Source: Volvox africanus
Taxonomy: Eukaryota; Chlorophyta; Chlorophyceae; Chlamydomonadales; Volvocaceae
Length of the DNA: 64,000 nucleotides
Direction: 5' to 3'
Assembly: GCA_030268105.1 (NCBI GenBank)
Contig: BSDZ01000004.1
Location: forward strand, 3,645,001-3,709,000
Numbering within the stretch: the stretch's first letter is position 1; each line of letters begins with the position of its first letter. The position numbers and the translations under genes were made by a program. Shown one piece after another: positions 7,744-60,364 of this stretch. Under the pieces are notes generated by a model. It had not been told where the DNA came from. It saw only the letters and a list, made by a program, of their open reading frames with translations, and searched no databases.

Positions 7744-10700
7744 TCATTGGGTCTGTGTGGCACGTAGGCGAGCTTCCTCCAATAGAGGCTTCATTTCCGG
7801 AGAGAAGTTACGCATCGGCTCCCACGAATTATGCTCGCTAGAATAGCCAGTCCACTTGACCAGATATTCGTGCACCTTCCGCTTTCGTCATTGTCGACCT
7901 ATACGACGAACCCGATAATGCAATATTCGCCCCACATCATACATGTTTGCTTGCCTGCGATCCAGGTCTCGGGACCGGGGTCCATTACTGCAGGGGCATC
8001 GGTGTCGTTTGTAACGGGCGTCGTGCCGCGATAAGGGCGGATGAGGGAAATATGAAATGTGGGATGGATATTCATGTCAGAGGGTAGGGATAGCTCCACA
8101 GCTACATTTCCTACCATGCGAACAACGGGATATGGACCAATCCAGCAAGGTAGCAATTTACGGGAACCGTCGGCAAGCGAACGCAAGTTCTTAGTGCTCA
8201 ATAATACCATTTGTCCCACCGAAAATGTTACGCCTCGTTTGGATTTATTATAATAGTCCGTCGTCCGTTGTTGTGCCGCGTCCAAGCATGCCTTCGCGTC
8301 TGTCATGTGGGATAGGAACGACTTGGCAAAGGTTTTAGCCGCTGGGATATTTATCTCCAACTCTCTCCACATGGGTAGTGCAGGATGGAATCCATAATTC
8401 AGAAGGAAAGGGCTTTGACCTGTAGAGCGGGTAACAGCGTTGTTAAGCACGAATTCTGCCGAAGTCGGAAATGTATCCCAGACAGAGGGTGTACGTCCCG
8501 CGAAATTCCTCAACATGTCGCCCAGCGTGCAATTTGTGCGTTCAGTTTGCCCATCGGATTGTGGATGATATGCTGTGCTCAAATGAACACGCATAGTTCA
8601 CATAGCGCTTTCCAAAACTTAGACGTGAATTGACCACCGCGATCGGATATCACATTTTTAGGAACGCCATGTAATCTGACCACGTTATCGAAAAATAATC
8701 GTGCTGTTTGCTCAGCGGTGCAAGACAAGGTGCAGGGGGCTAAGTGAACCCATCTTGGTCAAGCAATCAACCATAATGAACACTGAGTTGTATCCCCCCT
8801 CAGTTTTGGGCAGCACAACTACAAAGTCCATTGAAACATTTTCCCAAGGGGCATCTGGTATAGGTAACGGTTGTAATAAACCCTGGCCCTTACTGGATAG
8901 TGCTTTATTGCGCTGACATAAACTGCACCTTTGCACGAAATTTTCCGCATCCTTCACCACGTGCGGCCACCAAAACGAGCATCGTACGAGCTCTGCCAGA
9001 CGTGTACTTCCAGGATGTCCTGCTAACGGGTCCTCGTGGAACCGTGCAAGAATATCGTAGCTCAAAGCGTCATCGTTCAGTATGACGATTTGTGTGGCTG
9101 AGCCATCCTTCCGTAGCCACAAATCGTTGCGCTTGGGCAAATGCTCCACATTACTTGGTGAAGCAAACCATGGATCGGCCTGATATGTGATCTTGAGTCG
9201 TTGCGCGATATCCGCTGCTATCGGCACCTCCTGACTGCGTGAACGAGTAACCGGTGCTGCCAGAATTGCAGCATGTAACGATGGATGTCGACTGAGGGCG
9301 TCAGCAATATTGATTCTGCCGGCGATATATTCCCATGTACAGTCGAAACGAGATAGATATTCCATCCACCGGGCTTGTCGTCGGTTAAGCGTGGGGACAC
9401 CCTGCAAGAATGTCAGCGGTTTGTGGTCAGTCTTCAGTGTAAAAGGGCGGCCTTCGAGGTAACAGCGCCACTCCTTCAAAGCATGTAGAGCCGCCAACAG
9501 CTCCTGCTCTCCGGTTGTACATTGGGTCTCCTCACCCGAGAACTTCTTACTCGTGAAGGCAATCGGTCGTCCTTCCTGCAACAATACAGCGCCGCTTCCA
9601 TGCAAGGAAGCATCCGATACAACTTCAACACGGAATGGCAACGAGTGATCAGGGAAAGAGAGGGTAACGTCGTCGGCGATGATTCGCTTGAGCTCTTCGA
9701 ATGCCCGCTGACACGTGGATGTCCAGGCTTTGAGGGAAGTGAAACCTCCTTTCTTCGTCAAATTCGTAAGCGGGGCCGCAATAATGGAGTAATTTTTGAT
9801 AAACTTACGGAAGTAGTTGGTCAAACCCAAGAACTGACATAGTTCGGTGAGGTTCTGCGGTGCGGGCCACTCGTGAACCACAGCTACTTTCCGTGGGTCC
9901 ATCCTTATCCCAGTGGCCGATACGATGTGGCCCAAATACTCCACTTGCGGCTGCGCCCAAAAACACTTGGCGCGTTTAGCAAACAATTGCTCCCGCTTCA
10001 TCAACTCAAGCACGAGCTCGAGATGCTTCAGGTGCTCCTCGTGCGTCTTGGAATATATATTAAAATATCATCCAAATAACAAACGACGAACCTGTCGATA
10101 TACGGTCTGAACATGCGGTCCAACACTGCTTGAAATGTGGCGGGTGCATTAGTAAGTCCAAACGACAAGACCGTGTACTCGAAGTGACCAAAGGGGGTCC
10201 GGAAAGCGGTTTTCGGAATATCAGAGGCAGCACTGCGTATCTGATTATACCCTTGTTGAAGGTCAATCGAGGAAAAATAAGCTGAGCCCTTCAGCTTATC
10301 GAGCAGGTCATCGACGCGCGGCAAAGGGTAGCGATTTTTAATCGTGGTCGCATTCAAGCCCCTATAATCAATGCACATGCGTAACGTCCCATCCTTCTTA
10401 CCGACAAACAATATCGGCGCAGAAAATCGTGATGTGCTGGGCTGAATCATACCCTTTGCGAGCAGATCCCCCACTTGCCGCTACACTTCATCTAGCTCCA
10501 TCGGGCTTAACCTGTACATAGGTCGTGAAACGGGTTGTGCTCCGGGCACAAGAGGGATCGTATGGTCAACAGGTCGCATAGGTGGGAGCCCTGGGATGTC
10601 GCCAAAGACATCAGCATATTTATGCAGGAGAGCTTCGACCTCAAGATCCTTCACGGTGGACTGCGCGGTGGTAGCATTCGATTGCACCCGTGGCCTCACA

Positions 10701-14229: not shown

Positions 14230-14825
14230 TATTATTATTATTACATTACTCCGGCCGAAGCCTGGCGTGTGTTAAGGGGGAGACGGCACTGAGGGGGACT
14301 TCACGGACTCCCTATACTCCATATCTCCACCGCTATCCCGGTTGATCGTCCATCTTCTTCGATCAACATTGAACCATTATTGCTGGCCACACGACCCGTT
14401 CTTGCATCTTGCCAGAGTCGGGTGCTCCTGTATATATACACCAGGCCTCCTGAAATCTGCACCGCCCATGTCACGCACTACCACATGGCACCCTGTGCTT
14501 GCGGCACCCTTTGTCCTGGCGGAGGGTACTAAGCCCCCTACGACCCACTTCAGCCGCTTGGGAATTCTGCACCCCTCGTCTTAGTCTCGTGCGAGGTTCG
14601 GCCTAGCCATGCTTTCTTAGTAGCCTCCTTCTTGTCCAGCTTCAGATGGGCCTTGTATGTCCAATGTCTCCTCATCCACAGCTCCTAGCCTTCTGGTGAT
14701 GGGCTTGCCACCACATACCCACAGGTTGCCGTTAGCCTCGAACAACCCGTGGTGACAGCGATGGGAATTCGAACCCATACCTCCTGACGGGAACGTCAGT
14801 GCTCTTCCAATTAAGCTACGCTGCC
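14230..14825 (-). mobile_element. tRNA-derived SINE
   Basis: 596 bp flanked by a perfect 12-bp duplication. On the minus strand it starts with a tRNA-like head (14825-14753), continues with an unrelated body of about 500 bp, and ends in a (TAA)n tail (plus strand attattattattatt at 14230-14244). This is the standard SINE plan: pol III promoter head, body, simple-repeat tail. No coding capacity is expected. Its partner LINE is not identified; the body does not visibly match the 3' part of the neighbouring LINE, whose 3' end is missing. Confidence 0.8.
14753..14825 (-). tRNA. tRNA-like SINE head
   Basis: 73 nt that fold as a tRNA. A 7-bp acceptor stem pairs GGCAGCG with CGCTGTC, followed by discriminator A. 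The D arm is GCTTAATTGGAAGAGC (A box), the anticodon stem is CTGAC/GTCAG around GTTCCC, and the T arm is ATGGGTTCGAATTCCCAT (B box GGTTCGAATTCC). The anticodon loop is one base short and the T loop one base long, so it is a derived pol III promoter rather than a working tRNA. The loop would suit a tRNA-Gly ancestor (CCC or TCC), but that is uncertain. Confidence 0.6.
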
Positions 14826-15201: not shown

Positions 15202-18200
15202 GGATAATGCCAGCGCGTGTACTGCCATGCGCACGTAGATCGGTAGCAGGGACCCAACTCCCAATCCATACTGTTCCGCTGGTAGCAGCACGGCACGTGT
15301 GGGGAAACTGGTGGGCAAGCCGTAGCAGCGTCGGGCTACACGTGCTATCATCGCGTTCAAAAGTTTGATATCGTTAGGTGTGTATGCCATGGTGGGGAGG
15401 CTGTACGACACTACCGGTTGTATACAATTCTGTATGATTCTGATGCATTGGTCCGGCGATGCTAGGGAGCCCTGAAGTAGGTCACCCTTGTCCCTCACCG
15501 TCTTGCAGACATGGGACATCTGTGCACTCCAGTTGAGGGTCATTGTCACGTGTACCCCAAGGTATTTGTTGGGCTCCGTGGGGGGTAGGTACGGCACTGC
15601 CTGGCCGCTTATCTTGATTTTTTCCTCCAGGGCTGACTTGAGTGTGCGTGCATACGTGGGTCCGTTCAGGCCTCGGTCAGCCCAAGCCCTGTGGTGCAGG
15701 ATGCCCATCACTGCGCTTTTTTTGTGATTTACGTGCAGGCCCGCCCATTTTGAGTACAAGCTGATTTTGTCGCATTGCATTTGTAGGTCTTGTGCGTTGT
15801 TGGTCATCACAGCGAGGTCGTCGGCTTATGCGGCTGAGCTTCCTTGGTATCTGGCGTTCAAGCTGTCGGAGAGGCAGCCATTACTTGTACCCTCGTCCGC
15901 CTGCATGGAGCCATCGGAGGAGTGGTTCAAGGAAGATGATGAATAGCACCGGCAAAAGCGTGTCTCCCTGAACCGTGCCGCGTTCGATCATTATTGGTGC
16001 TGTGAGGCCGTGCTCTGTCGTATAGTGGTCCGTGCCTGGCTGTAAAGGTCCCGTACGACATAGATGAGGTCCTCGGGTAGCCCCAAGTCGTACATGATCT
16101 GTAGCAGCAGGTCGTGGTTGATGGTGTTGAATGCCGAGGAGAAGTCGACATACAGCAAGTAGAGATCTTTGCGTGCGAGGCCAGCATCCTCAATCACATG
16201 GAGCAGGTTTTGGATTTGCCTTTCTGTGTTTCTGTACCGGAGGAACCCTTCTTGCGCCTCACTGAACAATGCGAGTTCGGGTGTGACGTCCCCGATGGAC
16301 ACTGTGACGAGGCTAATCCATAACTTATAAAGGGTGTTGGCGAGGGCAATGGGTCTCTTGTTGCTCAAGAGGAGCGCATCCCCTGCTTTTGGTAGGAGGA
16401 CCGTAACGGATTCAGTCCATGTCTTCGGTGTGCGGGCCTGGACCCACATAACTTTCAGGAGGTCATGGATGGTGATCTGTAAGGCAGCAGGCAATGCCCT
16501 CAGCAGCTCGTTAGGTAGTCCATCTGGTTACGGCTTCTTATTACGGGCTAGGTGTTGGATACATTTGTTAAAGTTAAACGGGTCGGCGACACTGCTAAGC
16601 AAGACTTTATCCGTGGCCTGTCTCGGGCTGGTTAGGGAGAAGGTGTCTGGCGCGGTGCTCTGCAGGAATGGGTACGATCGCGGGATTTCCTCGGGGCGGT
16701 ACCGTCCAGTCTTTGGGGCGCTAATGGGGGCGGCCTGCGTCTGGTAGTACTGGTGTACAGCTACAAGGATGGATTCGGGTTCCGTGCACACTTTGCCTGA
16801 GACTGGGTGTTTCACTGCAGGCAGGCCGCGTTCGAGTTCATCCTTGCTGAAGATACCTTGGTGAGCCCGTCGAGGACATGTGGCGATCAGATGTTGGGTT
16901 TGGCGTCGCGCTGCAGATATGTTTTTCCGGCGTTCTATTGTTAGCGCCTGCCGTATTTGGCTACCGACCCATCAAATCGTGTCATGTAGTTGCTCCAGCA
17001 AGCCCCCCGCACCTTCGGGAGGTGTGTGGGTGCTGTTCGATGTCGGCCCATTAGGGCTTGCTGAGCTATCCGCGCAATGAGGCTGTTGGCATCCGGGGGC
17101 GGCCTGCATCCGTAGTTCCCTTTTGCATTCGTGTTTGAGCCGGGTGTGTTCTCTGTGTAGCTTTTTCAGTCCTCTGCTGACTGTGTGTTTGGTGTGTATT
17201 TTGCCCGTACATGGCGGTTTCTGCGGGCACAGGTCTAGTAGGATGTCTAGTCCCTTGTTGAGGGTTGTTTGAAGCATTGCTGCCGCAATCTCTACATTGA
17301 CCGCCGTGATGCTGTCGTGGTCACGAAGTAGTGTCATCAAGCGGGTGGCTGTCATATCACTGGGGTCCTCGGTGTGTTTCGCAATGCCAACCTCAATCTC
17401 ATGGACGGCTGGGCGGAGGTATTCCTGGAGGCTGAGGATGTCCGACGTGAGCGAGGCATCCATCTTTGATTGCGCTGCACGGATTGTGGTGTTCGGAACC
17501 GGTAGTATCACGTTTTTCCATTTAGTTCGGACCCCGTCTCCGTCTTGGTTCTTTGGGGTCACTGGTCTCTTGGCGTCCCACAGGCGGATAGCGTCGGTGG
17601 GCAGGCGGGCATGTACGGGGGTATGGTCAAAGTTTCCTCTGGCGACAGAAACAGTGCAGTATGCTTGTGGTGTGTTCCCGTTTGCAGGTGTCCCCGCTTT
17701 TATACTCGCGTGTAGAGCGGGGCACATCAGGATATCGTCTATTCGGCTTTGGTGTGCACAGCATTCCTTGCTCCACTGCTTGAAGGACGGGTGGCGGGGG
17801 GACCGGTTTTCAGGCACCGGTGTGAGCATGTTTTCGGTGATGAATTTGAGGTGTAGTCGGTCTGCTGTATTAAGCAGGCCTGTACTGCGGTCGTCAGGAT
17901 TCAAGACGGCATTAAATTCTCCGGCCAGGACTACATGTTCCCCGTTATTCTTGACCTGTCTTAGAACTGTCTGGCAGTGCGTGTATATGGTGGTTCGGAC
18001 TAAGGTGTCTTCCGGGCAGTAGATTCCCAGCACGTGTAGGGGGGAACTTGCTGACGTGGAAATCTTGCATTGGTACAGGTGCCCATGTAGCAGGGGCGGC
18101 GGTGATATGTGTGTCACTTGTCCTGCACAGGTGTAGCAGGCACCGATCGCAATTGCGACACCTGATGTGTGGTGTTCCTTGCCAGAGTTACGTGGTTTCA

Positions 18201-18603
18201 AGCTGCAGTAAAGTCTGTATCCCTGCGGTTCTTTGCGTAGGGCGTCCTTCATCCATCCAGTGTGGTTGCCGGTTTTGGTTTCCGTCAGAACAATGATATC
18301 GGCATCCCATGTCCGTACATTACACAGTGTACAGAGGAAGTTCGTCCCCAGTCCTCACATGTTGTGAGTGACGATGTGCATGTACCTGTGTATTGTTCTA
18401 TTGCGGCGTTCTGGGGGATTTGCATTCTCCAGGTGTGAGGATGTGGTGCTTTTTACGGGGGTGGTCGACAGTCTTGGGCGCTGGGCACTGGGTTCACTGA
18501 CGTTCCCACTTTCCCTTGTTGTGTGTGTCGTTTCCCCGGGGTGTTCAGCCCCGGCTGGATTGGTGCGTTTGTTAGCCCGCCGGCGGAGATGGTCAGTGGT
18601 CAT
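15202..18603 (-). pseudogene. LINE ORF: AP-type endonuclease and reverse transcriptase (four stops)
   Basis: One reading frame stays open for 3.4 kb apart from four stops at 18355, 16972, 16528 and 15826. From the N-terminus: a basic leader (MTTDHLRRRANKR), then an endonuclease/exonuclease/phosphatase domain with VTHNM*GLGTN, DADIIVLTETKTGN, VLAGEFNAVLNPDDRSTG, SRIDDILM and FDHTPVHARL. The reverse transcriptase follows with PDGLPNELL, LLPKAGDALLLSNKRPIAL, EGFLRYRNTERQI and YVDFSSAFNTINHDLL. The metal-binding box reads A*ADDLAV: TAA replaces the tyrosine codon, so it cannot be active. The thumb continues to 15202, where the LTR truncates it. The RT most resembles L1-type elements. Confidence 0.85.
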
Positions 18604-25180: not shown

Positions 25181-25421
25181 GAGCACAGCGTATCCATGAT
25201 AAGCCATCGTGTGTGGATACATAGCACAGGCGGCGATCCACATTGATTGTGTACACACGCGTCGCTGCATCTATCCGAGAATTCTTCTCTTGCATCACGT
25301 GCATGTGCACATACACGCATACATGCATCACGTGCATAACTTGCATTATTGATTGCGTGAACCCCCACTTATGCCGCGGGTCAAGGTCGCTCGTGCCCAG
25401 GCTTGGAATGCCTTGGCATGT

Positions 25422-26108
25422 TCACTCAACCGGCACAACATCTACCTCCTGTGCATTCGGGGACAGGTTTTTCCAGGCGCTCAGGTCGTCAGCTATCTCA
25501 GCCGACCCCGAGGTTATTTCGGTCAGATCGAATTCGACAGCGACGGTCATGACTTCCTCAAGGATCGCTGCGCCGGCGTTGTATTTGCCAAACCAGACGA
25601 TCACCTTCTCGACTGGAGTTGCAATTACTGCACCGTTCCTCTGAACGTGATCACCCAACCAGAAAGGTGCCCCTGGACTGCTCGCGGATGCTCCTGGGGC
25701 AGGCGTCTTGAGAACCGGGCGGAAAACCCGCCCGTAACCCATGCCGTTGCAGAAGAAGAAGCTACTACTGTTTGGCCTGGGGGGTTTGTTTGGGTTCTCG
25801 ATCATGGTGCCACTATCCGTCACGTCGTAGATGTGGCCAGCGACCATTTGAATATCATTGCCTTGAGTTGTGTATTTCGAAAAACGGTCATAAATCTTCT
25901 CAGTCGTGAAGCTTCCAGTGTAGTTGACTGTCCACGAAAGCTCTACCGTCTGGGCAAGCTCGCTCGGCGTCAATACGTGCCAAGCGGTCCTGTAAGTAGG
26001 CCTTTCCACCGTCCCGACTGCCTTGCCGACAACGAGGTTCAGCTTTTCTTCATAAAGGTACTTGCGAACGGCGTCGCTCAGCACAAGCTTTATCCTGTAG
26101 GACGACAT
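25422..26108 (-). CDS. 228-residue protein of unknown function, left copy
   Basis: Intact frame MSSYRIKLVLSDAVRKYLYE... ending ..VDVVPVE. I do not recognise the family. There is no signal peptide or membrane segment. The alternation of short hydrophobic and polar stretches (KLNLVVGKAVGTVERP, EKVIVWFGKYNAGAAILEEV, MTVAVEFDLTE) suggests a beta-rich soluble fold, and the middle holds the Pro/Asn linker ENPNKPPRPNS. The ATG is preceded by cctgctgttccag|gtcgac, which looks like a splice acceptor, so a 5' exon may exist. It differs from the right copy at about a dozen residues with no stops, which suggests purifying selection or recent conversion. Confidence 0.6.
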   Translation of the reverse strand: MSSYRIKLVLSDAVRKYLYEEKLNLVVGKAVGTVERPTYRTAWHVLTPSELAQTVELSWTVNYTGSFTTEKIYDRFSKYTTQGNDIQMVAGHIYDVTDSGTMIENPNKPPRPNSSSFFFCNGMGYGRVFRPVLKTPAPGASASSPGAPFWLGDHVQRNGAVIATPVEKVIVWFGKYNAGAAILEEVMTVAVEFDLTEITSGSAEIADDLSAWKNLSPNAQEVDVVPVE

Positions 26109-26865
26109 GTCGACCTGGAACAGCAGGAAATATTGTCACAGTCAATGCTTAGTCAGCTAAAATGACACTCATTATGCACCAGCGCTGTTGCACGTGCGAC
26201 AGTCCTGTATGTACTCTTATCTAATCTTCATTCGCGACAAGGCATATCCTGCATCGTCGTGGGCATACTATGACTCGCACATCAACAAGGGCACCAAGAG
26301 GCAGGTACGACCCCACGCACCTTGTAATTGCCGACGCGATGTTGGCTCTATAAAACAGCGGCGATGTCGTGCGCACAGTAGGGCTTGCGATTGTGCCTTT
26401 TGTTTATTCGAGGGTCACAGTATGTATTTATATCGATATTGTTTCGGGAGTCAATGTTTGTATTTATACTCAAGTGACGAATGTTCTGGCAGCAAGATGT
26501 CAACACGTGCGAAACCCAACAAATACAGGCTTGACCCCTTCTCGACACCTTCTGACTCTGACTGACCCGTTCGTTTCTCAACTTCTTCTGACTCTGACAG
26601 GCGGGTAGAACCTAGCTATGCAGTTTTAAGGTAAATGGATAAATTGTAAGAGATTACGTTTACAAAGACTTAAACCATAAGAAATTCTCTGATTTGGGGC
26701 ATGTGCCCGCGCTTGCCCGTGATTTTGCAGGTTTCCTTACTGCTCCCTAGCTTCTCACCAATGCTCAAAAGTAAAAGCGCCATCACAAAAACGTCAATTT
26801 AAAAGCTTTTTGACATCTTAATTATAATTAGTCCTGCGTGCGTGCATATGCGCTTGCCCGTGTTA

Positions 26866-27186: not shown

Positions 27187-27976
27187 GGCAAGCGCATATG
27201 CACGCACGCGGGGCTAATAACGATTGACATGGCAAACAGTTTTCAAGTTGTTTTTTTTGTGAGGGGGATGATACTTTTGAGCATTGCTGAGAAGCTAGGG
27301 AGCAGCAGAACGGTGTCGACCTGCCCGAAATCACGGGCAAGCGCGGGCACATGTACGCCAGGCGAAGAATGATTAAAATGGCCTGGTACTGGAGTAGAAA
27401 TCAGAGAATTTATTATGGTTTAAGTCTTTGTAAACTTCACCTCTTATCATGGATCCATTTAACCTACAACCGCATAGCTAGGTTCTACCCGTCAGTCAGA
27501 ACAAGTTGAGAAACGAACGGTTCCAGAAGGAGTCGAGAAGGGGTCAAGCCTGTATTTGTTGGGTTTCGCACGTGTTGACATGTATAATTTTGCTGCCAGA
27601 ACATTTGTCACTTGATTATAAATACAAAATAAAAAAATTCTATAACGCTGACTCCCGAAACAATATCGATATAAATACATACTGTGACCCTCGAATAAAC
27701 AAAAGGCACAATCGAAAGCCCTGCTGTGCGCACGATATCGCCGCTGTTTTATAGAGCCAACATCGCGTCGGCAATTACAAGGTGCGTGGGTCGTACCTGC
27801 CTGTTGGTGCCCTTGTTGATGTGCGAGTCATAGTATGCCCACGACGATGCAGGATGAAGATTAGGTAAGAGTACATACAGGACTGTCGCACGTGCAACAG
27901 CGCTGGTGTCATTTTAGTGTCATTTTAGCTGACTAAGCATTGACTGTGACAATATTTCCTGCTGTTCCAGGTCGAC

Positions 27977-28663
27977 ATGTCGTCCTACAGGATAAAGCTT
28001 GTGCTGAGCGACGCCGTTCGCAAGTACCTTTATGAAGAAAAGCTGAACCTCGTTGTCGGCAAGGCAGTCGGGACGGTGGAAAGGCCTACTTACAGGACCG
28101 CTTGGCACGTACTGACGCCGAGCGAGCTTGCCCAGACGGTAGAGCTTACGTGGAAACACAACTACACTGGAAGCTTCACGACTGATAAGATTTATGACCG
28201 TTTTTCGAAATACACAACTCAAGGCAATGATATTCAAATGGCCGCTGGCCACATCTACGACGTGACGGCTTATGGCACCATGATTGAGAACCCAAACAAA
28301 CCCCCCAGGCCAAACAGTAATAGATTCTTCTTCTGCAACGGCATGGGTTACAGGCGGGTTTTCCACCCGGTTCTCAAGACGCCTGCCCCAGGAGCATCCG
28401 CGAGCAGTCCAGGGGCACCTTTCTGGTTGGGTGATCACGTTCAGAAGAACGGTGCAGTAATCGCAACTCCAGTCGAGAAGGTGATCGTCTGGTTTGGCAA
28501 ATACAACGCCGGCGCAGCGATCCTTGAGGAAGTCATGACCGTCGCTGTCGAATTCGATCTGACCGAAATAACCTCGGGGTCGGCTGAGATAGCTGACGAC
28601 CTGAGCGCCTGGAAAAATCTGTCCCCGAATGCACAGGAGGTAGATGTTGTGCCGGTTGAGTGA
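27977..28663 (+). CDS. 228-residue protein of unknown function, right copy
   Basis: Intact frame of the same length as 26108-25422 and about 95 per cent identical. Visible differences include WKHNY for WTVNY, TAYGTM for TDSGTM, and SNRFFF for SSSFFF. The same acceptor-like cctgctgttccag|gtcgac precedes the ATG. The gene diverges head to head from the left copy with 1.87 kb between the start codons. Function unknown. Confidence 0.6.
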   Translation: MSSYRIKLVLSDAVRKYLYEEKLNLVVGKAVGTVERPTYRTAWHVLTPSELAQTVELTWKHNYTGSFTTDKIYDRFSKYTTQGNDIQMAAGHIYDVTAYGTMIENPNKPPRPNSNRFFFCNGMGYRRVFHPVLKTPAPGASASSPGAPFWLGDHVQKNGAVIATPVEKVIVWFGKYNAGAAILEEVMTVAVEFDLTEITSGSAEIADDLSAWKNLSPNAQEVDVVPVE

Positions 28664-28904
28664 ACATGCCAAGGCATGCCAAGCCTGGGCACGAGCGACC
28701 TTGACCCGTGGCATAAGTGGGGGTTCACGCAATCAATAATGCAAGTTATGCACGTGATGCATGTATGCGTGTATGTGCACATGCACGTGATGCAAGAGAA
28801 GAATTCTCGGATAGATGCAGCGACGCGTGTGTACACAATCAATGTGGATCGCCGCCTGTGCTATGTATTCACACAGGGTGGCTTATCATGGATACGCTGT
28901 GCTC

Positions 28905-31017: not shown

Positions 31018-40347
<9,330 letters not shown>

Positions 40348-47714: not shown

Positions 47715-50700
47715 TCACTTCCTTATCGGGGGTGGTGCACGCTTGCGTAAGGGAGGGGGCCGTCTGCGTGGGGGTGGCGAGCGTCTGCGTGGGGGTGGGG
47801 AACCCATATGAGAAGGCGGTTTGCGACGAACAGGTACTAAGGGTGATGGTGGGGACGGGGTACGGCTTGCAGCTAACATCGGCGGAGGAACCTGCAGTTG
47901 TCTGATGGGGCGAGGAGGTGGCCTGGGGGGATTCGGAGGAGGCACTGGGGGAGATGGTGGAGAAGGCGGGGATGGCGGCGGTCGAAACATCTTCTTAGGC
48001 GGCGATGGTGGCTGTGCGCGTGCCGGTGAGGACAGTGGGCGAGGTGGGGATCGAGATGGCGACGGCTTCGCTTGAGGAGGCGGCAGGGCCGCTTTCGGCT
48101 GTGGCGGCAGATGCGACGCTTTCTTAGGCGCAGATACTGGTTTTGCTTTGGGCGGCGATGGACGGGGTGGGGGCGGCAGGGCCGCTTTCGGCTGTGGCGG
48201 CAGATGCGACGCTTTCTTAGGCGGAGATACTGGTTTTGCTTTGGGCGGCGATGGATGGGGTGGGGGCGGCAGGGCCGCTTTCGGCTGTGGCGGCAGATGC
48301 GACGCTTTCTTAGGCGGAGATACTGGTTTTGCTTTGGGCGGCGATGGACGGGGTGGGGGCGGCAGGGCCGCTTTCGGCTGTGGCGGCAGATGCGACGCTT
48401 TCTTAGGCGGAGATACTGGTTTTGCTTTGGGCGGCGATAGAAGGGGTGGGGACAATGGGCTAGGTGGGATGCGCTTGGTTGACTTTGGTTGCGGTGGAGC
48501 CCGAAGAGACGTTTGGGGAGGTTGTCGAGCAGAATTTGTTGGAGAAGGGGGGTACGATGGACGGGGTGATGGTGGCAGGACTGGCTGCGGAGTCGTTGAC
48601 GGTAGTGGTCGGGGAGATCGCCGACCGGGAGGCTTGCTTGGTAATGGTGGGACTGGCGATGGGGGCCGCGGTTGAGGTAATGGCGGCAGCGATATCTGCG
48701 CTGGTGGTGGCGGTGGTGGTGGTGGCGGTGGTGGCGGTGATGGTGACGGTGGGGGTGGGGGTGGCGGCGGCGGTGGTGGAGGTGGGGATGTTGGCGGTGG
48801 TGGCGGCGGTGGAGGTGGTGGAGGAGGTGGAGGTGACGGTGACGGTGGTGGTGGCGGTGGGGGCGGTGGCGGCGTTGGAGGTGGTGGCGGTGGTGGCGGC
48901 GGAGGCGGTGGTGGAGGTGATAACAATGGTGGTGGTGGTGGTGGTGGCGGTGGTGGTGGTGGCGGCTGCATTGGTGGAGGCGGGGGTGGTGGAGGTGGTT
49001 GTAACGGCGGCGGTGGCGGTGGGGGCGGTGGTGGAGGTGGCTTTGACGGTGGGGGTGGGGGTGGAGGGGGTGGGGGTGGCGGTGAGGATGGTATCCGTGG
49101 ACGCGACGGGGGCGGAGAGGGGCGAGGTAACGGAGGGGGAAACGGCCGGGGTGGCGGACGTGGGAATGGAGGTGGCAACGGATGTGGTGAGGGCGGAAGA
49201 AAACGCGTAGGCGTTGGTGTCGGCGAAGGTCTAGGTGTTGGCGGAGATGGTTGGCGGGGGGATGGGAGAGGTGACTGTGGCGGCGATGGCGGTGGTGACG
49301 GGGATGGTTGTTGGCGGGTAGGGGGCGGTGACAGTTGCGGCGAGGGCGGAGGCGATAGTGGCGATGGAGGGGGTGACAGGGATGGTGTAAGGCGGGTAGG
49401 GAGCGGTGACGGGCGTGGCGAGGGCGAAGGCGATGGTGGCGGCGATGGGGGCGGCGATGGAGGGGGTGACGGGGGTGGTTGTTGGCGGGTAGGGGGCGGT
49501 GACGGTGCCGGCGAAGGTGGCGGTGATGGATGCGGCGAGGGCGGAGGCGATGGTGGAGGCAATGGATGGGGTGATGGGGATGGTTGTTGGCGGGTAGGGG
49601 GCAGTGACGGGGGCGGCGAGGGCGGAGGCGATGGGGGCGGCGATGGAGGGGGTGACGGGGGTGGTTGTTGGCGGGTAGGGGGCGGTGACGGTGCCGGCGA
49701 AGGCGGCGGCGATGGGGGCGGCGATGGAGGGGGTGACAGGGATGGTGCTAGGCGGGTAGGGACCGGAGACGGTGGCGGCGAGGGCGAAGGCGATGGTGGC
49801 GGCGATGGAAGGGGTGACGGGGGTGGTTGTTGGCGGGTAGGGGGCGGTGACGGGGGCGGCGAAGGCGGCGGCGATGGCGGGGGTGACGGGGGTGGTTGTT
49901 GGCGGGTAGGGGGCGGTGACGGGGGCGGCGAGGGCGGAGGCGATGGTGGCGGCGATGGAGGGGGTGACGGTGTTGGTGGTAGGCGGGTAGGGAGCGGTGA
50001 CGGTGGCGGCGAGGGCAGAGGCGATGGTGGCGGCGATGGAGAGGGTGACGGGATTGTTGGTAGGCGGGTAGGGGGCGGTGACGCTGGCGGCGATGGAGGG
50101 GGTGACGGGAATGGAGTTAGGCGGGTAGGGAGCGGTGACGGCGCCGGCGAGGGCGAAGGCGATGGTGGCGGCGATGGAGGGGGTGACGGGGGTGGTTGTT
50201 GGCGGGTAGGAAGCGGTGACGGTGCCGGCGAGGTCGGAGGCGATGGTGGCGGCGAGGGCGGAGGCGATGGTGGAGGCGATGGATGGGGTGATGGGGATGG
50301 TTGTTGGCGGGTAGGGGGCGGTGACGGTGCCGGCGAAGGCGGCGGTGATGGGGGCGGCGAGGCCGGCGGCGATGGTGGCAGCGATTGAAGGGCAGACGGG
50401 GCTGGTGGTAGGCGGGTAGGGGTCAGCGATGGTGGCGGCGATGGCGGGGGTGACGGAGGTGGTTGTTGGCGGGTAGGAAGCGGTGACGGTGCCGGCGAGG
50501 GCGGAGGCGATGGTGGAGGCGATTGAGGGGGTGACGGGGATGTTGGTAGGCGGTTAGGGGCCGGAGACGGGGGCGGCGAGGTCGGAGGTGATGGTGACGG
50601 GGATAGTAGTAGGCGTGTAGGGGGTGGTGCAGGCGAGGGGGGCGAGTGCAGTAACGATTGAGGAGGTTGTGGTGATGGTGGATGGACCGAAGTTATTGGT

Positions 50701-53491
50701 GTCGACACGGGACGTGTTGGCACTTGTGAAGCGGGGAAAGGGGGCGGCACAGGGGTAGGTAAAACTGATGGCGGACGCGGCACAGCAGAAATAGGAGGAA
50801 TGGTTAGTAGGCGCGTAGGCGATGGTGCCGGCGGTAGTGGCTGCAGTGATCCCGTGTTACCGGATGGGTTCAGAGCAGGTGACAGCGGTGTTGGTTGATG
50901 ATACTGAGGCAACGGTGACGTCGATGGTTGCGGTGGAGAGGGGGATACAGGGCGTGGGGGTGGCGGCGGCAGTAGCGATGATGGCGGTGGCGGAGTCGAT
51001 TGAGGTGGTGGTCTTGCTGTGGCTGTGCTTGGAGATGGCGGCGGCAGCTGGAGCGCGAAGTTGCAGTCGGGGTCGTCCATATCCACCAGTCCATCGCTGC
51101 ATCGAGCAGCCAATCAAGAATGCAATGACTGAGACAGGCAAAAAGACGGTCGTCATCATCATGCCGGGCGGGGTCACGGTGGTCGGATCCCAGACACAGA
51201 TCCGTCGTGAATGGGTATGCAAGTAAGCCAGCAGGGTAGCCTTTGCTGTATGCATGCAAGTATTACAGGGCAACAACCCTCATCAGCTGCCCACTTATTA
51301 CCTGGGCGGAGATGATATATGTATGCGTGCGGCACTACTGCTGATAGCTGCTGTGTGGGGGGGGACGCTTAACAACGGCTTTTTTATCTATCTGTTTCGG
51401 TACGGTTGTAGCAGGTGCATATAGCGAGAGGGTGCAGGCACACTGATCGATTAGTCCACATGCATACAAGATCATATTGTCTCTTACGCCGTACCAGCCC
51501 GTCGTACCAGCCCGTCGTACCAGCCAATCATACAGTCAATCGTACATACGCACTTGGAAGGCACACAGCGATCTACTTAGCTTCATTAGAGTCATCGCGT
51601 ACTTAGCCTTCAAATGATATTTTGATGATTCATTCGCTCGTTTCACAAATACTGTAGTAGTTGAATACTGCAAAGGCCTCTCGCGATGCTGAGTGAGGAG
51701 GTACTTCTTGCACCGTGAATTGTGTTTGCCGTACATCTACGATGACTACAAATACCAATACCTTGACTGCTTATCATTCCTTTTTGAACTGGAGGAATGA
51801 AAACTTTAGACGGACATCTGTATGTGTATGTGTATGTAGATGTGTAGTGCATTCCATTAATGATAACATACCATTTCTTTTATGAGCAAGGTAAGAGCGC
51901 GTGACCGACGTAATCTTTATATCAACCTGGATAAATAAAAAAATAAGTGTATTCTATTTGACGAGCCGTAACACTTTTTATTGTCGTAACTATTTTTGTT
52001 ACGCTATAAGTTGGTACGAATTGTAATAAAAAATGTACATGATCCTCGTCAGTCCCTATTCCTAAAAATTTTATCTGATATCTCTTTTCGATAGAAATGT
52101 TTTATGTTCATTCCTCATATATTTGTTAGTTGTAAAATAGTATAATTTGGATGGAAACCGTGATAGGAAAACTTAAATTTCTTGATAAATTGGAGCATTC
52201 TAGACATAGATCAGGGGCGATTTTATAAAAGGAATCGCATCTATCAGACCTGAAGATCTTATTTATATTGACAATAACCTGTTCTTATCTAGTAAAGTTG
52301 GTGATCTAAAAAACGAATTAACTAGGTTTCTCATGTTCTTTGTTTTTAGCTGCTAGTTCGTAGGGGGTTAGCGTTTTTATCTATTGTGTGTCTATCTAGG
52401 TAATCAATGTATCCCCGCCGCCGGCCCTCCAACTAGCTGGATAGCTAGCTAGTCGTTACTACCAGTCACCTACGCACCTACCAGTCATTATCCAAGCCAT
52501 CTGAGCAAGAAGAAGATGAACCGCCCGACTCAAAGGTTCTCAAGTACCGGCATAAAGACACGCTTGCAAATTGGGGCGTGGTACTCTTGACGGCAATTTT
52601 GATGCCGCCCAGTGCCGCAGGTGACAACTGCTGAGTGAATGACATCTCCCCAATGGAGCTATTGGTTGCCAGAATTCCAACAATGGCTGGCATGGAACTG
52701 GCAGGCGCCCCGTTGGCTGTGTCATTGTACTCGTGGATCCTGAGCAAGCGGATCCATGGGCGCATGTACAGTGGCGGATTGGTGGAACAGATGAGAAATG
52801 AGAATAGCACTACTGCGCGACAATAAACAGGCGTACATGCACCGATGTTGGAGAGGCTCGTGTATGGGCCTTATGTCAATGTGACCTACCTGCTGAAGCA
52901 TATAATACAATCTATCCTCCGTACTACTAATAATAAGGAGCGGATGTAGCTAGGAGTACATACGTGCGGGTAATGATGCATACATCTACGTAGCTGGGAG
53001 GGGTTCCATGGCAATCGGTCTGACAGATATATACGAGATGTTTAGAAAGGTATAACATATACCTTCCCGTTCCCGTCTTCCACACGCACGTTTCCAGTGC
53101 GCTCTGCTTTGCTATCCTTATCTCTACGTACCTATTTACCTACCTACCTACCTACGCAATTGCTGAGAAGGTACGAATGCGGTTATCCTTGATTTTGGTT
53201 GCAAGGAAGTGAGCTACGTGGATGACGGCTTAGATATTCGGGAAATAATAGCAAAATAATCCTTGATGCCCGTTATAGTAATATAATATGACAATGATAT
53301 GATCGCCTTATTATCATATTTGAGTTTTGTCAGGATCCAAGAAGAATTACAAGGCTTAAACTTTCTGGGAGCTTTCCTACTCTTATTTTTATGCATGGCT
53401 GCAGGGCATATTTATATATATGCTGCCGATACTACATACTGCTGCATGCGGTGTGAAAGATGAAGTGCCACTACCGCCTGTCGTTGTGCTC

Positions 53492-53522
<31 letters not shown>

Positions 53523-56500
53523 TACATACATACATATATATACATATATATGTATATATATCATTATTTACTCACCAGACGATGTTCAAATTAAGCGGCA
53601 GGCCCGAGTCAAATGTGGCTGATGCGCCGTTTGTGCCTTGCCTGAGCGTGAATCGAAGGGTAGAAATTTTTAAGTAGATAGTTTTGAGTACATTTAACTA
53701 TGCAGTAGTTGAGTGCCGAAGAGGCCGCTCGACAGGCTGAGTAGGTGCTTCTTGCACCTTTTTTGGGGGTTGTGCATGTGTGCCTTATATTGTATGCTAC
53801 TACACAATATGTACATGAATGTGCATGCATGAATGTCCATACAGCTGGGGATCACGCAGGCCACCAGTGGATTCCCTCCGATCGACACGCGTTTTGTGGT
53901 TAGGTAGCAATAAGGCAGGTATAGTACAATGTCCGGTCCAGAGTTCGAATGGTGATGGTGACGTATGCATGTATTCCTAAAATTAGCTGCTGGTCGCTGG
54001 CTTGAAATCAGGATCAGAATAAATGTACAATGAAATGTTATTTTATATAATGCAGTCTATATAATATGCATACAGCAGGAACTACAGGAAGCAGGAAAAT
54101 CATATCTAAGGAAGTACATACACCATCCGCAAATATACATGGCTTGTGGATTATTATTATAGGTGAATTATTAAACGATTTAGAAGGAAAACATCGAACG
54201 GGAAAGCTGGCAGAGCAGGATCCATCCAAACGGAGAGTCCATCCAGCCATACATGGCTTGAAAAAAGCATATGTGATACACAAGAAAGGATGTTTTTTGT
54301 CACTACATGATTATCTTAATTCAGTTGATATTATAGATCATTGTTCTTATTTATTTTTGGATGTATGGTGCACATACTTTCCCACGACTAGCTCGCACCC
54401 GTACGTAGGACCTACGTACCTGAAGGAAACAAACAATGCACGCTGGGAACCAGAATATGATGGTGAGTCCTTCCAGACATTGACTGTGTCTATGATGATA
54501 CGAAGCATATTCTTGCTGGTCAAAGACATGGGCGGGATCATGAAAATCCTTGGGGCGCCAGGGAGCATATCGATGACTCTGATGTGGCCACCTGGAATAG
54601 GTTCTGCCCAGCCCGCCTTGTACGACTGCACGTAACATAAAACAAATCAATATAGTGCGCGCGTTCGGACACAGGACACAGGTAGATGGAAAGGAAGACG
54701 AGTTCGAACGAGTAGTAGCATGCAAGTAGCATGCAAGACATATTACTTGGCATATACAGCGTTACCGGTTTCCGTTACCAATTACGTATGCACCCTTCCC
54801 GCCCGCTTTACTTGAAGCATACACGCCAACGAATATATACTGTACATGTAATGCATATTGTTTTAAATATGTGTTACTGCTAGGACGTGTTATCTATGAT
54901 GTCATAATGCCCAACCAATGCCATGATACCATACTTGCTCTGATGATGACATGCCATGCATGCATATTGCCCACTAACCAAGCAAAACCCTAGGTAGTAT
55001 TATTACCTGAGGCGCATTGTTGCAGACGAAGGTCCTCCGAATGTCTGTGGGCACCGGCCTTCCCAATCCATCAGTGGGGTCAGTGTACGGCATGGTGTCG
55101 CAGCGCGTTATGTTATCATCCGCGACGTAACAGCTCCGTATGCCGGAGGGCATCAAGCCAATATTATGTCCTGCAGTTCGTCATGCGCGTTCCTAAAATA
55201 AAATGCTCTTAAGTAATAAAATTAAGCCTGCCAAGCAAGCAAGGTTCGTTGGATGGGGATTCATTCGCCCGTGTGCTAGACCTGCCATACGGACGGACCT
55301 AGACAGTCCGGGGGCCAGACTCCGTGCTGATATATTGCTTATAAAGAACACATCATGTCTAACAACCTACATACCTGCATTTATACCCGTATTATACTCA
55401 ATATTAAAAACTGCTTAAGGTAAGCTTGCAAGTAATATATTATCTTAGCTATCAATTTGAACCCCATTTCTTTTCGTGATCAGTAGATAGATAGAAACAT
55501 AGATCCTTGATTGATGACGATGGCAAGCCATGTGCATGTGTGCTTATTTGTCTATATGCCGCTGTATACGCGCACACATCGCTTCGCAATTAATGCTAAA
55601 ACTCCTATGTTAGATAGGTAGATGCATTCGCAAGGCTAGGCTATCTAGAATGCGCTTTTAGCGGTAGGGGCGGCAGGCCCCAATTAACCCCCACCCCGCG
55701 ATCGATCGAATGAAGATAAAAGGATGCAGGTGGTTTTATTTCTTCGCTTCCTTTCGGTCTTAGAGTAGGTTCCAACGGACTCGAAGATTCCCTTGGAGTG
55801 TTCACGTGCCTGCTTGAGTCTGTGATGGTTCCCGAACTGGTAATATATTTGTTTTCATTGGGTGATGTGTCTTTCTGCGCGGACGGCTCCCCCCACCCTC
55901 TATCCCTGCCTTCTCTTGGGTGTGTATCGGTTCGTTCTCTTCCGAATGTCCACGTGTACTACATACATTTTCGCTCTTGCTGTCTGATGTGCGGAACCAG
56001 CTGAGTAGCATACATGACTGGATGGGGCAGGGGGTTGTTCGTTCGGTACATATGGGGCGGCCGCCTCCAGATTGATGCAGCGGGGTTCACTTGCAACACA
56101 GCAGATTCCAATAGCACCTGATCCTGCCGCCTGGAGTCCGAGTCCCTCCTTACATACAACTTGCAGCAGCGCACGGTGGTTCCACCTCCCCTAGTAACGA
56201 AATACGACGACGCGATGAGTTCCCCACCTAAATTGCGAACGACGACGGTGTTGTCGATAACACTGCTATTCTGAAAACCGGAATTGATCCATGAATAGCA
56301 ATCGGACTTCGCAGTGCAACCCAGCGCAGCCTGTAAAGGGAAATATATTTTCACACATCATTTCATATGTATTTGTACATCGTACTTATACATTTATATT
56401 TCATGATGAATAGAAATTATTATTATATTAATAGTAATAATATGCATTAACAGTAATAATATGCATTTTAGGATGCATATTGCTACATCACGATGTACAA

Positions 56501-59500
56501 CTTGGCAACTGGGCCAACGCTGTACCTAAAGCACAAACTGTATGTGTTTGTGTGTCTTTATCTAGCTACTTACGTAAGGAACCCAATCAATTACTGTAAT
56601 TATGAAACTTATCCGGCCATACATAACACCTCGTAATGCCATCCATCCATCAGCAGCAGCAGATTTGTTCGGGGATTATTACGCACCACTCCTGTCCATC
56701 CAACAACGGGCTTGTACCAGTTGAAAGGAAAGATCATTATCTTACGGCGAAAGTTTGACCACTGGCTGTAGAGGCTGGGGTTCGTCCGCTGCATTATATA
56801 AACACAAAACAAGCATGCAATGAATCAATCAATCGTCAAGTATATTTTAAGCATCGGTAGATGTGGCCTTATCCATGGTGCGCAAAACATCATAGCAAAT
56901 AATAAAGGAGAATATGTACATCTATCGCATACATGCACCATTGATCCGATGATATGTTGAAGCAACTTAGTGTGTAGTAAACAACATACCTTTAGGCTAA
57001 ATATATTCATAGGTAATCATGCGATAAGCATGATACCTAAAAAGCTCGCGATTCGCAATAGCGGATCGCCGTACATCTTGGCAGGTGAAGCAAAATATTC
57101 CCTGTCACCCTAAGTCACCCTGGTGGAGTGCTTTGGCCAGACAACGAGGTATCACATTACCAGTTGTTCGGAGTTCAAGACTCTGCTACCACCGGTTTCC
57201 ATTAGATGTACCAGTTTGCTGCATCGTCATACTTGCAAGCTATTTCTAAGGGGACAAATTCGACGCTTCCGCACAGAATCTCTAGCATCGTTAATACGAC
57301 TGCTACAGTGTGTATATCCACCCATCTCTGTAGCTACGAATGATGTAAAATCAGTCTAAAAACCAGCAGAAGATCCTGGTAATGAAAATGAACGAAACCC
57401 GCCACGCACCGCAGCCGTAACAATGAAATTAATCCATGCCCTTTATTCCTTTCCTGCTGTCACTGCTGGCTAAGCCCGCGCGGGTTCCAGTGATCTCCAT
57501 GTCTCTCTCTCTCTCTCTTCCCCCCCCCCATATATATATATATATATATATATTCACATTCATGTCACCTGCAGATGCATCCACGCCAGCTCGGTAAGGG
57601 CATATTTCTCATTTTCATCATTGCGCCCGTTTGCTCGTCCAACCCTCAAGTCGTACGGCCCATAAGATGTGTTGCCGACGCAAGGAATGTCGACGTCCAT
57701 GACCAGGTTGTTCTCGGGCCGAAAGGTAAGCTGACCATATGTGCACGACTATGTGTATACATATATACACATATAAATATAAAGCAAACAAGGCAAATAG
57801 ACGTATGGCATGTTAATTATGATGAAGATAAGGACCTGATGATAGATGACACAATGTATACCTTAAAAGGACTAACATTCAACTGAAAATTTCACCAATA
57901 TTACATACATAATTTTCTTAACCTATATTCATAACGTAACATACAGGCAAAATTAAGATACAATGGGTTGTTATATTGCAAGCAACCTGCCAAGTAACCT
58001 AGATTTACAGCCTAGCAAGCTGTGGATTGATAAATCAACCGGTCACGCACGCATATGGAGGGAGATATATTGATCCTCGCTTTGCAACGGACATAATTTC
58101 TTCCTCACTGACTTTGTGGTACCGTTCCAGGGTTGCAGTAATGCGGGCGTTGTCACCGTTGTCGTACCACCAACTCCGTACAGCCTCCGCAGTCAGGTTT
58201 GGTATCAAACCGCATGTCGAGCTTCGAAACACAAATGTCAGCGAGGATACATTCTGTTGTACATTTCCTATTACAAATAGATCCTGTACGTAACGAAATC
58301 AAGGCAAGGGGAGTATGATATGGGTTATATTAAAGTATTTTAAAATCTCTCGGATCAAACCCCGCCCATTCCTTATCTTCATATTTACTTTAGGATACAA
58401 GATTCGCTGGCAGAATGAAGATCATTATTACGAAAATGATATTTAAAAGATGGATGTAACAGATGGTTTTTTTGAAGCTGACATCCATATGTGTTGCAAA
58501 GAAGCACGCCTGCAGGTCCCAACGGCGTCGCATGCATGCGGCAGGCATGAGATCGCCCGACCGATCCTATACATACACGCACGTACACGCACGCGGTTGC
58601 TTGCCTATTAAGCCGACAAGCAAACTACATCCCTATCTGAAGTACCACTTCATTCCTTGTAAGGAACTATTTATTTGCATGTTGCTACGTGTGTGTGGGA
58701 CAGAAGAACGAATTTAGATAGATAGATAGAGTGAGAGAGAGAGAGAGAGAGATGGATAGATATGGATGGATGTGTGTGTCTGTGTGAATGAAACAATCAG
58801 ATGATCGCATATACATGTATACATACCTTGGCTGCATCCTTCCCGACTATAACGGGATTCTCCGCCTTTGGCACATCTGACAACAGCAGTCGCTCGCCGC
58901 TGACAACCTTGAGGATATCTGTCAGGCTCAAGAACTCCTGCAGCGAGCGCCGAGTGTTGTGGAAGTCCAGCACCATGCGGCGAGCCTGCTCGTGAGCCTC
59001 GCTGGTGAGCAGCCGCCGCCCGCCACCAGGACTGGTATCAGAATTTGGTCCTATACGCCGTATAGAGTGATTCAAACATGTGGACAGCCAAAACAATGGT
59101 AGATCAGGGGGATGTGGGAGATCAAAGAAGCTGTCGTCGGTCGCGCAGGATCCACGCTACGTAGTCGGCCTAGCAGCCATAAGGTTAACGTCCCTTACTA
59201 TCTTTGTGGCGACGGCGGCAGCAGATAGATAGGTAGATATAGCCTACCCGCCTCCAAAATCATAGACCGCAATAATGTTTATTCCCAATATCGACGATAG
59301 ATATTGGATTCCTTGAGGATTCCTTTGCGCAAGGTGGGCTACATACTATATATAGCTAGCGAGTCTACAGCTCTTACCAAGGCCAAGCTGCTTTGCTTGG
59401 TTAGGTGTCAGTTGCAAGGTGAGAGATGTTTGCACGACGTCTCCGGTCTTCAGAGAAGTGGATCTCACACCGAAGTCCACGCGCACTTCCACCGGAGGGG

Positions 59501-60364
59501 TACTTAAGCCCGTCGGCGTACCGACGAGAGTGCAGGTGTACTTGGCCAGGTTTCCAGCAGCACTAATATTATTGTTGCTGGTCCTGCTGCTGCTTGTGTC
59601 ATTCTGTGGGGGCATATACGACACGTAGACCTGTACCGTTCCTGCGAAGTAAATTGCAAGAATTTTAATTTAAGGGGTCATCATACAGAACCTGAATGTG
59701 CACGCCACTAGCTAGCTATGCGGCACCTCGCTCGGGACTCTCATTTATAGTTCCATTCGAGACTACTACAAACATACATCACGCCACGTCGCACGCAAAT
59801 GCATGCAGAGGCCGATAGATCGACATCGCACGGTTTGTACAGTATTCATACAAAAATTACATTTTCTTTTATCCGCTATACCTTCGACAAAAACTGTTAT
59901 GTTGACGTAGGATTCAATCAATGCCGTTGGTTGCGCTACAGCACCTGCAAACGCGGCCATCCATCGATATATTGCTTGTTGATTCATTAAAATTTTTGAA
60001 ATAAATAGATCGCATATAAAAATAATTTATATCTGATGCACGAATACCAAGGTCTTGCGCAACCCGGTTTCAACTGGTTGCTGTTTTTCGCCAAAACAGG
60101 CTGTGGCATATAATAACTATATCCTGATAATGCCGGTTATATTCGGATCAACATCAAAACAAAATATTTTAATATTTCAAAATCATATATGTAGGCTCTG
60201 TCATATATGGCTGCAGTCGTTAGCATATACGCAAGCAACCACAAAACGGATTTTGGAAGAAAGCAGTAATGTTGGCTGAAGGTAGAATATAACGATACGT
60301 ATACAACCTTACATCGGTAGTAGCAGCATAACCCTGCCAGCAGGGCCGCGAGAACCAGGCCCAT
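47715..60364 (-). CDS. Gene B: gametolysin-like pseudoprotease with giant proline-rich tail, 1744 aa
   Basis: Thirteen exons: 60364-60313, 59944-59882, 59641-59378, 59050-58827, 58283-58113, 57748-57569, 56788-56687, 56330-56228, 55170-55007, 54625-54420, 53641-53576, 52739-52482, 51096-47715. Order and phases equal those of gene A. A signal peptide (MGLVLAALLAGLCC) is followed by the same N-terminal and protease-fold regions (GTVQVYVSY, SEAHEQARRMVLDFH, RTNPSLYSQWSNFRRK, SYKAGWAEP, VWIHEYND). At the zinc site it reads RNLGHNIGLMPS (residues 384-395). First His is Arg, catalytic Glu is Asn, third His is Pro, so proteolysis by this site is not expected. The Met-turn region is replaced (CDTMPYTDP). 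After the MopE-like motif (CSDGLDNDCDGLVD) about 1,100 residues of SPPP, TRQQPPPSPPP and long poly-Pro follow, typical of hydroxyproline-rich wall glycoproteins. Expected to be secreted into the matrix. Confidence 0.85.
48072..48440 (-). repeat. 93-bp tandem repeat in the gene B tail
   Basis: Four units with period 93 bp encode a 31-residue repeat (KAKPVSPPKKASHLPPQ PKAALPPPPRPSPP, written as two parts). Units are nearly identical, differing for example at SAPKK for SPPKK and PHPSPP for PRPSPP. This implies recent expansion or homogenisation. Basic Lys-Pro blocks alternate with poly-Pro. Confidence 0.9.
48690..49090 (-). repeat. Poly-proline coding block
   Basis: GGTGGC-type runs on the plus strand encode long proline runs (9-14 Pro) broken by single Ser, Thr, Leu or Lys on the minus strand. 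They form a stiff rod between the SPPP repeats and the 31-residue repeats. The plus-strand open frames here are shadows. Confidence 0.8.
57021..57306 (+). repeat. Dispersed 275-bp repeat, copy 2
   Basis: In intron 6 of gene B; partner of 29044-29317. It carries a small internal duplication (gtcaccctaagtcaccctgg). Confidence 0.7.

Follow-up and report, generated by a model that had tools for sequence, protein, structure and literature searches.

A gametolysin-family (M11) paralogue of Volvox africanus with a lost catalytic site and a 1115-residue proline-rich tail: a candidate matrix pseudoprotease

Results

Two M11 genes on the minus strand of the window

We analyzed a window of 64,000 nucleotides of Volvox africanus DNA (C4:3645001-3709000, contig BSDZ01000004.1) and searched a genome comprising 126 contigs and 140,993,249 bases. 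Two genes were rebuilt from the minus strand of the window. Gene A (31018..40347) had 13 exons, GT-AG introns and only the terminal stop, and encoded 717 aa with an intact HELGHNIGLPHA site and a 58-aa basic, proline-rich tail. Gene B (47715..60364) began with an ATG at 60364, its stop codon ended at 47715, all 12 introns were GT-AG, and the reading frame contained only the terminal stop; its predicted product was an M11 pseudoprotease of 1744 aa with a 1115-aa proline-rich tail. The entry phases of gene B equaled those of gene A at 13 of 13 exons. The preliminary description of this locus had 13 exons, splice sites, phases and frame intact over 1744 codons with a last exon of about 1,127 codons, and the rebuilt model reproduced each of these points.

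Exon 1 of gene B (60313..60364, minus) opened with MGLVLAALLAGLCC, a hydrophobic N-terminus that by eye is a probable signal peptide. Exon 4 (58827..59050, minus) covered the end of a presumed pro-region and included GRRLL as well as the conserved stretch RRMVLDFHNTRRSLQEF (consensus taken from the alignment). Exon 13 (47715..51096, minus; 3382 nt, ~1127 codons) contained the CDGLVDMDDPDC motif followed by the tail. When our own spliced aligner was run with the V. reticuliferus protein as guide, exons 2-12 were recovered at identical coordinates, exon 1 extended further upstream with one frameshift, and exon 13 was placed in the shifted frame of the V. reticuliferus annotation.

Gene B matched the Pfam family Peptidase_M11 (PF05548) with 104.5 bits over residues 217-545, covering positions 4-278 of the 303 in the profile; since the curated cut-off is 21 bits, gene B is a family member by profile. 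Gene A scored 111 bits, and the two proteins were 47.5% identical over 638 residues. PF11617 matched both genes below its own cut-off. A Pfam search with residues 1-640 of gene B at E up to 1 returned nothing beyond these two families, and no pherophorin domain.

We modelled seven paralogues in the C4 cluster (G, A, B, C, D, E and F). All were free of internal stops, with an unsure end in G, and A, C, D, F and G had the site. Three near-identical truncated copies of the 3' half of gene A lay outside the window (L045, L046 and L047, at C4:3606-3616k, 3578-3588k and 3557-3567k); one had HELSH, and the other two carried stops and no recognisable exons 8-10. Intron 6 of gene B included a ~300-base repeat (window ~57355-57000, minus), and a closely similar copy lay downstream of gene A (29323-29030, minus). 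Elsewhere in the window, long open reading frames at 8712-10067 and 16972-18354 (both minus) looked by eye like parts of retroelements, of reverse transcriptase/RNase H type and endonuclease type. A near-identical inverted pair of 270-codon open frames lay at 25353-26165 (plus) and 27920-28732 (minus), and a tRNA at 14753-14825 (minus) was the sole Rfam match at the gathering threshold.

Loss of the catalytic site in gene B

Exon 8 of gene B (56228..56330, minus) ended in ...VVVRNLG, where live paralogues end in ...[HQ]ELG, and exon 9 (55007..55170, minus) read HNIGLMPS...DPTDGLGR, with the third His ligand lost and Leu at the Met-turn position. Across the junction (56228 / 55170) gene B had RNLGHNIGLMPS, reading RNLGHNIGLMP, while the homologous junction of gene A (35701 / 35139) had HELGHNIGLPHA, reading HELGHNIGLPH. 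The first His, the Glu and the third His were changed and the second His was retained, in agreement with the earlier reading that gene A has HExxHxxGxxH and that gene B lacks two ligands and the catalytic Glu.

A protein search with the first 640 residues of gene B returned 21 proteins, from Volvox and Pleodorina. The best match was Vretimale_3187 of V. reticuliferus, a gene prediction marked partial and with a misframed tail, which was 80% identical and carried the site RNLGHNIGLMPSG. Neither HExxHxxGxxH nor QExxHxxGxxH, the variant of the VMPs, was found in gene B or in this orthologue. A sequencing or assembly error at the site, which had been named beforehand as a finding that would overturn the claim, was ruled out because the same motif in a second species makes such an error very unlikely. 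The 47.5% identity to gene A, together with the same dead site in Vretimale_3187, indicates that the gene B model goes beyond chance.

It is very unlikely that the locus still yields an active enzyme, whether because an alternative exon or splice site brings the metal site back or because the protein uses a different metal or chemistry. A change of the first ligand is tolerated in the M11 family, since 13 of the 23 proteins whose sites were read have QE, and a VMP with QEXXH reportedly prefers copper. Exon skipping is documented for another Volvox M11 gene, lsg2 (PMC4378016). Gene B, however, lacks the Glu and the third His besides the first ligand, and its V. reticuliferus orthologue is equally dead. 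None of the 2578 single-intron donor/acceptor combinations within exon 8-intron 8-exon 9 gave [HQ]ExxHxxG, and HExxH was absent from all three coding-strand frames of gene B. We thus ruled out an alternative junction restoring the site among these combinations, and an exon restoring HExxH, whose transcripts the preliminary description had listed as a refutation, was not found among them.

The Met-turn was dropped as a sign of deadness. It reads DIMGY in gene A and DGLGR in gene B; since the V. reticuliferus orthologue has DGMGR and the HExxH-bearing V. carteri 99771 also has Leu, we gave this position no weight.

A long basic tail that extends a family trait

The tail of gene B after CDGLVDMDDPDC comprised 1115 residues, with 580 Pro (52%), 171 Ser (15%), 90 Lys plus Arg and no Asp or Glu. 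It was proline-rich to its end, with nothing globular after the rod as judged by composition, and was built partly from tandem repeats. Mismatches between repeats were in excess at third positions (656/840/1226) and 574 of 574 repeat pairs were in frame; we rejected this as proof of coding constraint and take it as a hint, the pairs being overlapping and not independent. The 21 relatives with the CDGLVDMDDPDC motif had tails of 12-140 residues that were proline-rich and mostly basic, and 17 of the 21 had 0 or 1 acidic residue; six further rows of the comparison were without the motif. The gene B tail was thus ~8 times the next longest compared (1115 vs 140). Since its relatives carry short tails of the same kind, the predicted tail of gene B is a family trait that has been greatly extended.

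The last 129 residues of Vretimale_3187 (P0001) matched exon 13 of gene B in a shifted frame (RHLQAQ.QQ.HHLNR). The frame of the public model shifts after DNDC, and the annotation probably uses a wrong splice acceptor there. By similarity, which runs on in one frame across gaps, a homologous tail start is present in V. reticuliferus.

Age of the loss

In a tree of 24 of the 28 rows (P0018, P0019, P0020 and P0021 were left out), the nearest relative of the pair of gene B and Vretimale_3187 was V. carteri 99771, which has HELGHNIGLSHS; the support of 87/78 was below the tree program's own mark. As both V. africanus and V. reticuliferus carry RNLGHNIGLMPSG, the loss predates the split of these two species, and on this tree it most likely occurred after the V. 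carteri lineage had split off. Stem lengths were 0.49 for gene B, 0.30-0.50 for the live D, F, C, A and G, and 0.73 for the dead E.

Orthologues of A, C, D, E, F and G were found among the proteins of Japanese V. africanus. No orthologue of gene B was found there among proteins of ~352-1120 and 960-3052 aa, with ~8000 candidates sharing most words scored in each range; the 960-3052 aa search gave two weak matches covering 3-6% of the query. When alignment A1, built from 19 of 21 proteins (P0018 and P0021 left out), served as the query, 11 proteins were returned, all already known. The Pleodorina starrii protein PLESTF_001803300 (P0020) had the site KELGHNIGLPQS, with two ligands changed and the Glu kept, and is possibly inactive too.

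Constraint after the loss

We classed alignment columns by their conservation among 12 representative live paralogues, with the active site excluded, and counted the differences between the two species in each class. Gene B differed at 8 of 129 highly conserved, 34 of 251 intermediate and 56 of 188 variable columns (conserved vs variable, p 7.7e-8 in this protein-level test). The corresponding counts at conserved and variable columns were 6/128 and 56/192 for live F, 2/130 and 31/193 for live D, and 8/130 and 59/188 for dead E, so the pattern of change in gene B after the loss resembles that of live paralogues. The family residue was kept at 117/129 highly conserved columns in gene B, 120/130 in its orthologue and 115/130 in E, as compared to 123/130 in A, 122/128 in F, 124/130 in G and 128/130 in both C and D, live genes that also helped to define the conserved columns. 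Identity to the V. reticuliferus orthologue was 80% for gene B, close to the 81.8% of the other dead pair; live pairs had 82-87%, the highest being TH vs JP. A codon-based dN/dS among paralogues was given up because dS was saturated (1.6 to infinite in 21 of 21 pairs).

Six cysteines were invariant in alignment A1, dead members included, five of them in the M11 part. The predicted fold of the orthologue Vretimale_3187 was still metzincin-like, with the active-site helix; no solved structure was matched by sequence below E 0.07.

These data bear on the reading of gene B as a young pseudogene in which the site is lost, decay is under way and the frame is intact by chance. The lack of an orthologue among the Japanese V. 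africanus proteins searched would fit it, as would the truncated copies of gene A nearby, which show that copies decay in this region; identity slightly below that of live pairs and the 117/129 conserved residues likewise count against upkeep. We nonetheless consider a pseudogene improbable. The loss, common to both species as RNLGHNIGLMPSG, predates their split; changes since then track the conservation pattern of the family; and the 13 exons are whole, with every phase and splice site preserved. When neutral change was simulated up to 20% amino-acid divergence, runs acquired 5.8 stops on average, and 499 of 500 had a stop at that divergence, with 1 of 500 staying stop-free; because stops are by nature absent from a predicted protein, the weight of this result lies in the full-length, exon-by-exon agreement. 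Taken at the protein level, gene B is constrained after the loss of its site. The earlier claim of a complete, kept M11 paralogue without a catalytic site was therefore supported by the gene model, the dead site of the orthologue and the column-wise constraint.

Other dead M11 loci

Gene E (L042/L041; C4:3737340-3728976, outside the window) had an open 13-exon model with the site FQALASNTGLKSS, which was also present in its orthologues Vafri_13772 (Japanese V. africanus) and Vretimale_3190 (V. reticuliferus). A single shared origin of dead B and E was rejected (AU p 0.0029, 41 log-likelihood units worse); two losses are needed on the tree, which indicates that B and E lost their sites independently. 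The tail of gene E was 38 residues long. Gene E, separately dead with this short tail, ruled out the dead site and the long tail as one package: deadness is not tied to the tail.

The site was also read in another 40 M11 loci, which were hand-picked, as reaching the site, from 133 exon-level genome matches; some of these were near-identical copies, and all were read over the exons around the site only. In four of the 40 the Glu was missing together with one or more His, namely L065 (QTALRNYGLWNA), L075 (QQILHNFGLYNS), L077 (QQLLVNFGIYPS) and L079 (QAMLRNLGLYYA); they lie on contigs C5 and C100, are of VMP type with open aligned exons, and look dead. L066 and L067 had Asp for Glu, L080, L085 and L086 departed at the Gly, L070 was not surely readable, and the remaining 30 had Q or HExxHxxGxxH. 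Between live L078 and dead L079 (C100:940k and 959k), a 57-codon 3' part had a dS of 0.10 and no amino-acid change, and the 42-codon active-site part a dS of 1.44, a pattern that looks like gene conversion ending short of the dead site.

Discussion

We consider it probable that gene B has been maintained as a pseudoprotease of the matrix. Its product would be secreted and belongs to the gametolysin/VMP (M11) family; pro-region, metzincin-type fold and conserved cysteines are kept, and the residues needed to hold a metal and activate water are lacking. The dead M11 fold would most likely still bind its former targets, hydroxyproline-rich wall glycoproteins, or partners, without cutting them. 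The tail should form a hydroxyproline-glycosylated rod which, being free of acids and strongly basic, would most likely anchor the protein in the extracellular matrix by its hold on sulphated glycans. The protein would then act as a structural or adhesive component and may also shield sites from live paralogues. Secretion, rod, anchoring and binding are proposed from the findings on gene B and the biology of the Volvox matrix.

The closest known system is the VMP family of Volvox, which Hallmann (2001) and Heitzer & Hallmann (2002) reportedly described as having M11 homology and (hydroxy)proline-rich domains; VMP induction by the sexual pheromone or by wounding is likewise attributed to Hallmann (2001). 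Gene B combines a metalloproteinase homology domain with a proline-rich, putatively hydroxylated domain in one protein, as the VMP family requires. It shares with the VMPs the M11 domain, the proline-rich part and membership in a large paralogous family of Volvox, in which QExxH was common among the relatives examined here. Unlike them it has neither HExxH nor QExxH, is without the Glu and the third His, and bears the exceptionally long tail. The gametolysin of Chlamydomonas (MEROPS M11) resembles gene B over most of the PF05548 profile. Gametolysin, however, is a zinc-binding enzyme, with Chlamydomonas isoforms described as having conserved zinc-binding sites (PMC8643629), and the zinc site is absent from gene B.

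Pherophorins are defined by globular pherophorin domains that flank a rod on both sides. Gene B resembles these and other volvocine hydroxyproline-rich glycoproteins in its long proline-rich rod; it differs from pherophorins in having no pherophorin domain in the first 640 residues and in a rod that is C-terminal and basic. In such matrix proteins the proline-rich rod varies strongly in length, and the Volvox matrix contains hydroxyproline-rich glycoproteins, among which the pherophorins bear highly sulfated O-linked sugars (PMC9818292).

Gene B could instead encode a regulatory decoy, a non-cutting competitor of the live VMP/gametolysin paralogues that tunes matrix remodelling by occupying their substrates, inhibitors or activating proteases; the tail would then serve just to place it. 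Pro-region, predicted fold and invariant cysteines are retained, and gene B clusters with the site-bearing A, C, D, F and G. In other families, inactive homologues of metallopeptidases share with gene B a fold kept without catalysis and have binding, regulatory or scaffolding roles, regulating active relatives or scaffolding complexes (PMC11266112); a term search of that review gave no gametolysin, Volvox, Chlamydomonas or alga, and M11 only in DOI strings. A tail of 1115 residues, however, exceeds the needs of a decoy. Nor do the present results distinguish a protein that binds regulators from one that binds structural glycoproteins. We regard the decoy as rather unlikely, and prefer the structural or adhesive matrix pseudoprotease.

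The preliminary description held that gametolysin-family pseudoproteases with such a tail are not a described class. With respect to M11 pseudoproteases this stands within the literature searched, in which we found no description, subscription papers being mostly outside its coverage. MEROPS lists non-peptidase homologues in many families, and with the limited coverage this makes the absence weak. The claim does not hold for the fusion of an M11 domain to a long hydroxyproline-type tail, since such fusions are a published kind, the Volvox VMPs, and relatives carry tails of 12-140 residues; and the dead loci extend past one gene. A wider possibility, which we advance tentatively and with less confidence than the reading of gene B itself, is that M11 matrix proteases of Volvox have repeatedly become matrix proteins that no longer cut. 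The cases of B and E are independent and conserved between species, and at least four more loci look dead. They might form an undescribed class of matrix pseudoproteases, of which B would be the extreme, with a dead head that is joined to a basic hydroxyproline rod of 1115 residues and that reads and crosslinks the matrix.

The A/B pair, with exon-by-exon homology in one cluster, is a clean live/dead pair for testing these ideas. In volvocine algae, expansion of matrix metalloproteinase genes tracks organismal size and not colonial life itself (PMC8919427). If part of the M11 expansion is non-enzymatic, gene counts would overstate proteolysis, and some of the "proteases" would be structural or regulatory parts of the matrix.
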